From: Galaxea fascicularis
Taxonomy: Eukaryota > Cnidaria > Anthozoa > Scleractinia > Euphylliidae
Direction of reading: 5' to 3'
Length of the DNA stretch: 64,000 bases
Assembly (NCBI GenBank): GCA_948470475.1
Contig: OX419345.1
Coordinates: 20,838,359-20,902,358, forward strand
Below are positions 3,302 through 10,431 of this stretch, in pieces; position 1 is the stretch's first letter; every line of letters starts with the position of its first letter. The translations under genes were made by a program, and so were the position numbers. The notes beneath the pieces are model-generated. The model saw only the letters and a list, made by a program, of their open reading frames with translations. It was not told the DNA's origin and ran no database searches.

Positions 3302-6300
3302 CTACAGTGTCAATTTTGCCACCCATTTTGAGAGCTCTCTCCGAAACTGGGCCCAGTCCTCCAACCCAACTGATGCGACATTGTGAGATGGAATTGCAGG
3401 ATCCTGGACAATCGGCAGTGAAAATGTAACTGGAAGAGTCTCGTGAGGGTAATCATCTGACAGGTAATACTCATTCCAGAATACTCTAGAAAAAATGGAC
3501 AAGAAAAGGTGTGAGAATAAATTGATACAAAAAAGGTCACAACTGGATACATAAATTTGTGTGTCATTCTAAGGATCATAACAAAAATGTCTAGTTGATG
3601 AAGCTCAAAATTTGGTTCCAGAAATCATAGATAATTGCCATGTTTTAGTATTGGTGAGGTTGATGAAATTCTGTAGACACTTGTGTTTTTCATGATTTTT
3701 CTTCTGTGAGATTGTTTAAAATTCCCATTTTAATTAACTGGGTAGCATTCATCCGCTTTCTGTACAGTGACAAATTTTATTTTCCTCTTCTCAGGAACTT
3801 TAGGCATTAAATCCAATAATATTTTTGTGTAGAGTTATCATTGTCTGTTAAAATGTGTCATTTTCAACTTTCTTACATATCCACAGCAGTCATAATCTGG
3901 CTGCTTACTTATATAGCCAACAAGAAATCATAAAATCATGCTCCAAATGATCAGACTTGTATTTTAATAAACTTGAAATTTAGATAAACTGTCCAGGAGT
4001 ATGACATGAGTAATTTTATAAACTTACTCCAATGATTCATCCCCAACCATGTCTGCTAGTTCTAGGAACACATCCTTGTCTGCCCTGACTGCTTGAGTTT
4101 CACTTCCCCTGAAACAAGTTAACCCCACCCCAAAGTAAATAATATAGTTTACAATGTGTGCAAACTTCATTTAGCTATGCTTGGGGCAGCACAATTCAAC
4201 ATGACTAAACAGCACTATCGGGTACCTTTGTGTGCATCAAGAAGTAAAATTTCCATTGGTGATAAGAATCTTATTTCTCCTTTCAATCTCCTTACACTGT
4301 CATATAGTTGGATATGAGAATAAATCAAGTGATCACCAATCTGGGGTTTCGTAAATAGAAATATATCAGAGGAGTTTATTCCCCCTTTAAACCTTCCAGG
4401 GATTGTCGATTCAGGTACTAATTATTAGAATTTTTTACCTTAAAGTTTATAAAATTGTGCAGCACACAAATTCTGACAAAAATACTGTTTTGTTACCAGA
4501 AAATTAGTTTCAAAGGCTACAATTTTTTTAAATGTAACTGCATGGGATGTTGTGTAGAACTGTTGTCATTGCCCTGTACTTTAAATCAAAAGGAGCAAAC
4601 ATGACTATGGATTAAAGGCAGGTATCTTTTACAGGTCACAGGCACAGGTCACTGTTTTGTTGATTCATAATTAAGCCAAACAGTTTCATCACGATCTAAA
4701 AAGAAATTTTGGATAGTGATTAGGGCTAGGAGACACTTTTGGGCTTGTTTATTTATCTGTAGCACGGTGACCTGTACTTTGACCTGTGGAATATGACCTC
4801 CAAAAAAAACCTGCTGGTGGATTAATGGTCACAAAATACATTTGTTTTCAATACATACTCATGAACCACTTGATAAGCTGCAGTGACCAGCAGTGAGATT
4901 AGGTACTGACTGGGTTTGGATGAGGAATTCCTCCATGCAATAGTGTTGCTCCATGTCTTTACAATACGGATCAGGTCCTTGCACTGTCAATAAATACAGT
5001 ACTTAAACCTTTAAACCCTAAGAGTGATCAGCATCAAATTTCTCCTTGTAATATAAACACTTTATAAAACAGAGTGGCCATACGAATTAAGGACTGGATC
5101 ACACAAGATGAATTTGCTTGATAGTTTAACAACTTCTCCCTACTACTTCTATAGGAAATGTGTTGGGGCACAAATGAGAATTTAAATGTTGATCTTAGGG
5201 TTTTATTTTAGCCTACATGCATTAGAATGGTTGGAGAGGGGGAATTTGAGCATGCAAAAGTGCACCGTTCAAGAGCGGACCCAAATTTCCTCTTTCCTCT
5301 CCCCTTAGAATGCCTGCCATTGCAGGCTAGGTGCATTTGTAATGATGGTGATTTGGAATGGAATACTTAAAGAAAAAGGTAATTCTTTTAAGGAGCAGAG
5401 TGCAACCTAAATTGATCTACTATATTACCTTTGAATCCTTTACGGAAATAAACTCGGTTTGCCTCTCACAGACGGAAATGTTATAGCTAAGAAGAAAGAA
5501 CACAATTAATTAACTTTTCATACTTTTTATAAGTAAACTTTGATGTCACAAAAATGAACATTGATAAACACTGTCTGTCACTGCATATTGAAAAAATCGA
5601 GGGAGGGATTAGCCTGCATTGCAGGCACTGAAAGTTTAACTCGAGTTTATGGTGGCACTTGTGTGGGACAAGCCCGTTTTTAATCCTCTTCTCGTGCGTT
5701 TCCTCCTCGTGCGTGGAGCTTGCGTGTAGTCTCTCTTTATTGTAGCTACTGCAGGTACTCACAAAATCTGTGCATCAGCCGGTTGACCTAAACACTGCTT
5801 ATACAATGCTTTGAAGCCACCCATTGGCTCCCAGTCATTGATTGGCATTACCACCACATTGACGTTGTCGCATTTGAACAGGACAGCTGTTTGGGTTGTC
5901 ATGAAATCTGAACATGGCGGTAGTTTGCTGGCTGCTGACTGGTCATTTGTGTGGTCTGCCATTTTTGAGCCTTCTTGCTTCAGTAATGTTTTGATGGTAA
6001 ACACTATGGCGGGTAACCAGCTCTTGTGTTCAGTTCTGGGAAGGTCTGAAGGGAAACCAATTTATTGGTTATTGTTTCCAGTTATGTTTCTTGCTACATA
6101 GAAAGGACCTAAGACTCGCTTTCTGGTGATTACTTGTGTGCAGCTGGCAACAAAATCTAATGGGAGTATTGTCACAGGGTGTGGTTGGTTGCGGAGAGTC
6201 CGCTTCGCGTTCTATGGGCGGTTTGAACTCTTGTTGTATTTAGTAGCGGACATGTTATGTACCGGGATGTGCAAATAACGACGAAATGTACATTGTACAC

Positions 6301-9300: not shown

Positions 9301-10431
9301 TAATTCCAAGGTTGTGTTGATGGTCATTTCGTCTTGACTGTAACAGAACGCACTTCTGCCAGGAACGTCCCACGAGTTCATTGTCACACTTCTGTTATCA
9401 TCCTTGTAACAGAACACACGGACACTCCATAGAATCTTCATGTAATAAGCACTGTCGTCTAAGTCTGTTTGCTTACTTTTCGGATCAAAGATCAGGGTTA
9501 AATCCAACGTTTTCTTGTCAGTGGAGCCCGTCCTTAGAGCCAAGGAAGATTCGTCTTCTATAAGGCATTCATTTCCCATGTCATTTGGCGGAGACCAGGT
9601 TGCTGTGTCGAATCCGAAGTAATAGTAAGGCTCGACGCTAGTGATTTTAACGCCGATGGTAACCATTCCTCCTTTGGAGATGGCCGTGAGATCTTTGCTT
9701 CGCACAAATTTCTCAATTCCAAACGCTGTGGTGGCGTTGTTGTCGCAGAAATGATGACTCACTTGTACCTCGCGACCACCGCGAACATAGATTGAGTATG
9801 TGGCTTTGAACCTTAACACGGAAGGCTCTTCCCTGTGTAGATAAGCTGCAGCGTATTCCGAGTGTTGTCCAGAGTTGTTGGACGGTTCTCCCTTGGGGTA
9901 AAGGACCAGGTACCATTCTTCACCATACAAAGAAAACTTGGAGGTGATGACGTGGCTTGTGCGGGATGACAAATTAATGACTAGTTTATCTTCAAATATA
10001 GTGCTCACCATCGAACATTTGATCTCAACATACAAGTTATTCTCATCCAAGAATCCCGAGTCGGGCTTCTCGATTTCTTCCATTGCCAGCAACTTACTCC
10101 AACCGATTCCGAATCTAACTTTTGGAAACTCGTCGTCTTCACGGATGTTTCCAACTCTCACGGACCTTGAAGGGTCTCTGTTGTTGTTTACTTCTAATGA
10201 GAATCCAATCTTGCATTTTACTTTATCGGTGAATTGGCCGCCCCCGAGCCACCTTAAAAACACACCAAACTGTCCACCCTTGATACCGCCTTGCAATCGC
10301 CACCGAGACCCGGCGAAAAAGAATGGCTTTGAATACACACTGGCACCAATGTTAGGGAAGTCTTCAAAGATAAACTTAAAACAGCAAGTGTCATCCTCGA
10401 GTATTCTTGTGTTGTGTAATCGTAACGCCAT
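3302..10431 (-). CDS. MATH-MATH-coiled coil-OAS-like nucleotidyltransferase fusion
   Basis: Ten exons, all in phase: 10431-9295, 8767-8595, 7793-7616, 7339-7226, 6911-6806, 6003-5763, 5486-5429, 4983-4859, 4108-4028, 3485-3302; 798 residues. Residues about 1-430 hold two MATH/TRAF-like domains (GSRWRLQGG near 47; YGEEWYLVLYPKG near 174). Residues about 425-535 are a charged coiled coil (EKDQLLADKDEEIAARQKE). From 535 the protein follows 2'-5'-oligoadenylate synthetase: P-loop-like GAAGQGTTIKG (548-558), helix KDLIRIVKTW (about 670-680, OAS counterpart LIRLVKHWY), and a C-terminus with DPAIPSHN like the OAS DPADPTGN. OAS enzymes bind dsRNA and make 2-5A in antiviral defence. Here the first catalytic Asp is Glu (E561, in HELDL), the second is kept (D563) and the third is Val (V620, in VNVVVMP), so activity is doubtful. 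MATH domains usually bind receptors or ubiquitin ligases, so a signalling scaffold is an inference. Weakest donor: GTTACT after exon 3. Confidence 0.85.
6439..6648. mobile_element. Short hAT-like MITE in intron 5 of the MATH-OAS gene
   Basis: Terminal inverted repeats AGGGTCCCCTATAC and GTATAGGGGACCCT bound about 210 bp. The flanks form an imperfect 8 bp duplication (GCTTACAG left, CCTTACAC right), as expected for an old hAT-type insertion. The interior repeats CGTGAAACGTGATT-like units. No coding capacity. Confidence 0.7.
8145..8382. mobile_element. Foldback element in intron 2 of the MATH-OAS gene
   Basis: The left end (GAGGCGGATCCAGGGGAGG) and right end (CCTGGATCCGCCCCTGAG) are inverted repeats. 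Each arm also carries a C/G tract, CAACCCCCCCTTT. About 240 bp, non-coding, probably a non-autonomous DNA transposon. Confidence 0.65.

Follow-up and report, generated by a model that had tools for sequence, protein, structure and literature searches.

The stretch of DNA analysed here, referred to as the window, is a 64,000-nucleotide piece of the genome of the stony coral Galaxea fascicularis (GenBank assembly GCA_948470475.1, contig OX419345.1, positions 20,838,359 to 20,902,358 of the forward strand). Within it, ten minus-strand exons between 10431 and 3302 connect in phase to give one frame with a single stop. The encoded protein has 812 residues, and in it a module of the oligoadenylate synthetase (OAS) family follows MATH domains and a putative coiled coil (Table 1). 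The gene spans 7.1 kb of genomic DNA, and GT/AG borders were found at 9/9 introns. An in-phase fusion of ten minus-strand exons had been proposed for this locus in an earlier note, with the right coordinates and with exact positions for the junctions 8595/7793, 7616/7339 and 7226/6911; the length given there, 798 residues, is replaced by 812. A candidate extra exon at 4296-4226 was left unused, since the frame is broken if it is included.

Table 1. Exons of the MATH-OAS gene, in window coordinates (aa, amino acids; NTase, nucleotidyltransferase)
Exon	Position	Strand	Residues	Content
1	9295..10431	minus	aa 1-379	Start codon, MATH 1 and MATH 2, most of the predicted third MATH-like sandwich
2	8595..8767	minus	aa 380-436	End of third sandwich and start of long helix
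3	7616..7793	minus	aa 437-496	Coiled coil (predicted)
4	7226..7339	minus	aa 497-534	Stretch behind the long helix, then the OAS module's lead helix
5	6806..6911	minus	aa 535-569	NTase motif 1, VGAAGQGT..ELD replacing GGSSGKGT..DAD
6	5763..6045	minus	aa 570-663	Conserved DLPRTEHKSWLPAIV and motif 2, V634 at the D148 position
7	5429..5486	minus	aa 664-683	Start of OAS1_C
8	4859..4983	minus	aa 684-724	OAS1_C
9	4028..4108	minus	aa 725-751	OAS1_C
10	3302..3485	minus	aa 752-812	End of OAS1_C, PIVQDPAIPSHNVA stretch, stop codon

Pfam searches of the joined protein gave 56.4 bits for MATH_2 (PF22486, two stretches, cut-off 32) and 28.3 bits for MATH (PF00917, cut-off 21.2), so that both the fold and a Pfam match place it in the MATH superfamily; the second MATH domain on its own scored 26 bits, below the cut-off of 32. 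OAS1_C (PF10421) was matched over residues 664-809 with 54.2 bits against a cut-off of 19.9, which confirms the domain but extends it to exons 7-10 from the exons 8-10 named earlier, and together with the NTase core it gives the architecture of the OAS superfamily. All three families were matched in 6/6 aligned members of the family described below (E up to 0.01). By sequence the first MATH domain is nearest to USP7, and by fold to USP7 and SPOP; the D-W-G-F stretch of USP7, of which D-W is presumably a peptide contact, aligns with G108-I-G-W111 of the coral protein. Unlike USP7 and SPOP, the window protein has no matched protease or BTB domain, and no RING, zinc finger or ubiquitin family was matched either (Pfam, E up to 1 for RING/zinc finger, BTB and ubiquitin). 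The term ‘TRAF-like’ in the earlier note is imprecise: the nearest matches of the first MATH domain are USP7 and SPOP, the order is the reverse of that in TRAF proteins, with MATH ahead of the coiled coil, and the RING and zinc fingers are unmatched. A third MATH-like sandwich is predicted from a structure model of the Montipora relative, where it occupies residues ~276-408 and is followed by a long helix (416-490), and from one weak alignment of profiles between MATH 1 and this sandwich (58 columns, probability 29%, pairwise E 5.7e-4). Profile comparison of MATH 1 with MATH 2 gave nothing notable, that of MATH 2 with the sandwich a match limited to 8 overlapping residues, and Pfam on the sandwich alone no match.

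At least 17 distinct relatives were found and, among the matches listed, five carry MATH and OAS1_C, eight carry MATH only, one (P0009) is a C half only, and three short fragments have no Pfam label. Identity to the window protein among the five with both domains is 80% for P0001 (Montipora foliosa), 76% for P0002 (817 residues read without a break from a 3398-nt contig; cluster size 238 members), 73% for P0003 (Stylophora pistillata), 50% for P0004 (the sea anemone Actinostola; like P0003, a gene model with internal gaps) and 41% for P0006 (a 743-residue frame on a 3599-nt contig, lacking the start of MATH 1). The architecture thus recurs in stony corals and an anemone, as the earlier note had suggested it might in other cnidarians. 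In these protein searches only candidates sharing most words were scored, and absence from a list means little (P0006, itself one row of the query, was missing from one).

Because five of the 17 distinct proteins among the matches listed are labelled with both domains, an assembly chimera is ruled out for the architecture. Since the window gene takes up 7.1 kb with nine introns, the 3.4-3.6-kb contigs of P0002 and P0006 are most simply read as spliced mRNA, with a retrocopy as the alternative. Five proteins with both domains, together with the uninterrupted frames, lead us to conclude that the fusion is old and probably made as one transcript. It had been asked whether the MATH and OAS exons belong to separate mRNAs, and the long intron-free frames on short contigs, covering both halves, speak for a joint message. 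That two separate genes have been wrongly joined, or that the locus makes MATH-only as well as fused transcripts, would fit the eight MATH-only relatives of 17 and P0013 of Nematostella, where the MATH part ends at the corresponding exon border and is followed by another tail that lacks OAS, through either a mistaken gene model or a true difference. This explanation is nevertheless very improbable given those frames, the predicted third sandwich, which straddles the exon 1/2 junction, and the sequences of P0005, P0007, P0008, P0010 and P0012, which by eye continue beyond the end of exon 1 into unrelated sequence, like unspliced genomic DNA. An exon 1 query against the coral's own genome returned only itself among the matches listed, and a protein search with the C half returned no plain OAS protein among the four matches listed.

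The catalytic triad D75/D77/D148 is not kept in the six aligned members, where the three positions read E, D/E/H and V/T. In the best-supported alignment D75 is replaced by E, and D148 by V or T, in 6/6 members; the window protein has E561 and D563 at motif 1. P0006 has H at the second position, and among members the GS loop reads G-A, G-S or G-N. The third carboxylate is lost, as expected of an enzyme-dead OAS domain of the OASL type, and with D75, D148 and the groove lysines K60 and K66 changed in all six members, the module appears by alignment to be enzyme-dead. Several details qualify this. Aligned by HMMER, pig OAS1 gives a different register at the third site, in which P0004 and P0006 carry Asp and the window protein N630, and an Asp lies two residues ahead of the D148 position in P0002-P0004 and P0009 (Asn in the window protein). 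Neither register puts an acid at the third position of the window protein (N630 or V634), for which the dead third site is firm, and less so for every relative; the E at D75 is still a carboxylate and could bind metal. An active NTase with altered metal ligands, producing 2-5A or another signal, would agree with E561 and D563, which are compatible with an [ED]h[ED] motif, with the OAS1-like fold of the core and with the Asp near the third position of some relatives. The non-acidic third site of the window protein, the H of P0006 and the altered GS loop are hard to reconcile with such an enzyme, and we would be greatly surprised if it proved to be one.

The modelled NTase core resembles the OAS1 fold and has OASL in the second row of its structure matches. 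The OAS1_C half was poorly folded in low-confidence models, and its Foldseek matches had low TM-scores, which counts against the adaptor reading given below; owing to the low confidence of these models, any structure-based claim on this half was dropped. The stretch DLPRTEHKSWLPAIV (residues 570-584) is identical in 4/6 aligned members, differs by two changes in P0006 and is absent from the gene model of P0004; it could serve as a docking surface. Between P0006, the most distant member, and the window protein, identity is 56% and 53% in the OAS halves, 35-38% in the three N-terminal domains and 29% in the coiled coil. The OAS module is the best-kept part of P0006, better conserved than its MATH partner, which would not be expected of a decaying remnant; in nearer members the two are conserved to about the same degree.

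OAS proteins are usually read as sensors of double-stranded RNA (dsRNA), and the earlier note spoke of a dsRNA-sensor fold. A working sensor is not supported: beside the broken triad, the basic dsRNA groove (K60, K66, R195 and K199, a selection that partly reflects our own assumption) is not kept, with K60 and K66 lost in 6/6 members and R195 and K199 in the 5/5 that have letters there, and the OAS part is acidic, with an isoelectric point (pI) of 4.3-5.3 in 6/6 members (P0003 and P0004 being incomplete here). In the portion of PMC9980059 consulted, nucleic-acid-sensing cGAS-like receptors have pI values above 8.5, a rule derived for cGAS-like enzymes and not for OAS, and acidic ones are proposed to sense other ligands (Li and others). 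On the other side, K57 is Arg in 6/6 and K204 is Lys in 5/5 members, so the groove is not wholly stripped, and R195/K199 are weak evidence, as plain paralogues with an intact triad partly lack them.

These plain OAS genes offer a comparison within the same genome. PF10421 scored above its cut-off at 12 genome places, and the window gene was not among them because the search runs exon by exon. Plain genes or pieces form a loose cluster at G000:C10:4393619-4769288 (L002, L003, L004, L006 and L008), with further loci at C6:25.47 Mb (L001 and L007) and on C35 (L005). The cluster contains near-identical copies, L002 and L003 being the same over two compared segments, and some plain matches contain stop codons, which may reflect introns or decay. 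Inspection by eye covered the frames of L001, L002, L004, L005 and L006 among the eight loci; the triad D, D, D is kept in L001, L002 and L004, and the frames of L005 and L006 showed no exon with an NTase motif. Nine plain segments from five of the eight loci (L001-L004 and L006, the last contributing its C1 part only) have pI values of 8.1-9.6, against 7.0 and 5.8 for the two equivalent segments of the window protein; the scan covered all eight loci and gave no segment for L005, L007 or L008. A caution here is that the NT segments were picked by a pattern already demanding GGS..K.T and DLLPTF, so they are no fresh test of the triad. At the R195/K199 positions L002-L004 have V and Q, L001 has K and K, and L006 has K and Q.

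We consider it probable that the product of the window gene is a multimeric signalling adaptor rather than an enzyme. The coiled coil would multimerise the protein, the MATH array would recognise peptide motifs in clients or in proteins of the ubiquitin pathway, and the acidic dead OAS module would dock a partner protein or sense a ligand other than nucleic acid. An active OAS paralogue might be the docked partner, in the way that NF90 partners NF45. Those DZF proteins have a related fold, used for dimerisation according to the title of the structure entry, and are the first Foldseek match of the C half (TM-scores ~0.2, on a poor model); the coral sequence belongs to the OAS family and not to DZF (DZF_N E 0.16, 12.4 bits versus a cut-off of 27.1). 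Only its family membership points to an immune role.

The closest known parallel is human OASL, with an OAS fold, a lost third carboxylate (T152 in OASL, V or T here) and fusion to signalling domains. According to the part of PMC4446440 consulted, OASL lacks the third carboxylate and needs K63 and K66 to enhance RIG-I signalling, and a dead OAS can therefore signal. RNA-dependent signalling of this kind would be the main rival to a protein-docking adaptor: the dead OAS would bind viral dsRNA and the MATH array would relay this to partners of the ubiquitin or TRAF type, along the lines of the earlier note. The retained K57 and K204 positions and the rank of OASL among the structure matches are in keeping with it. 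The loss of K60 and K66, the low pI set against the cGAS-like receptor rule and the basic plain OAS segments of the same genome make it unlikely, and dsRNA sensing by the MATH-OAS protein lacks support. OASL also differs in its C-terminal ubiquitin-like domains and working RNA groove; the coral protein has MATH domains at its N terminus, together with a predicted coiled coil and a module that is acidic, and it ends with OAS1_C, no OASL-like ubiquitin family being matched at the E limit given above. OAS1, OAS2 and OAS3 share the NTase core and OAS1_C, and differ in that the coral protein does not keep the triad or K60/K66, has MATH added and contains a single OAS module. More specifically, and only tentatively, the adaptor may have arisen in cnidarians independently of OASL, with a multimeric MATH array and an acidic pseudo-OAS serving as protein dock or non-nucleic-acid receptor, possibly pairing with active OAS of the same genome to set its output or link it to ubiquitin signalling.

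No MATH-OAS protein was found in the titles or abstract openings among the papers listed, supplementary tables lying outside that search. The one paper found to pair ‘oligoadenylate synthetase’ with ‘MATH domain’ is PMC8195603, on death domains, and the part of it consulted shows no such fusion; the word MATH is absent from PMC10732462 and PMC6307210. Animal NTases fused to interaction domains (ANK, TPR and death domains) are listed among cGAS-like receptors in PMC9980059 (the portion compared excludes its tables), but that list requires an intact active-site motif, which is missing in the MATH-OAS proteins, and surveys of that kind would miss them. Public records label the relatives uncharacterized, hypothetical or ‘MATH domain-containing’. 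The sequences are thus known, and the MATH-OAS family seems to have no description in the open literature searched, as the earlier note had supposed. Pseudo-OAS adaptors as a kind are already known; the MATH fusion appears to be a new form. The protein looks like a second pseudo-OAS case beside OASL, with an OAS module that has lost key catalytic residues and lysines such as K60 and K66 yet is kept in corals and an anemone, and it makes the role of a non-enzymatic OAS fold testable in an early animal lineage.

Elsewhere in the window, a short plus-strand frame adjoining the MATH-OAS gene (12006-12218) contains a stretch of the cytochrome P450 haem-binding type by eye, FGTGPRSCIGMRFA. An open frame at 16681-17589 (minus) resembles an ethanolamine-phosphate cytidylyltransferase, and a 923-residue open frame at 26713-29484 (plus) resembles a Patched/Dispatched-type membrane protein. 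Frames at 44000-47079 (minus) resemble a LINE-type retrotransposon, with reverse transcriptase and endonuclease recognised by eye.
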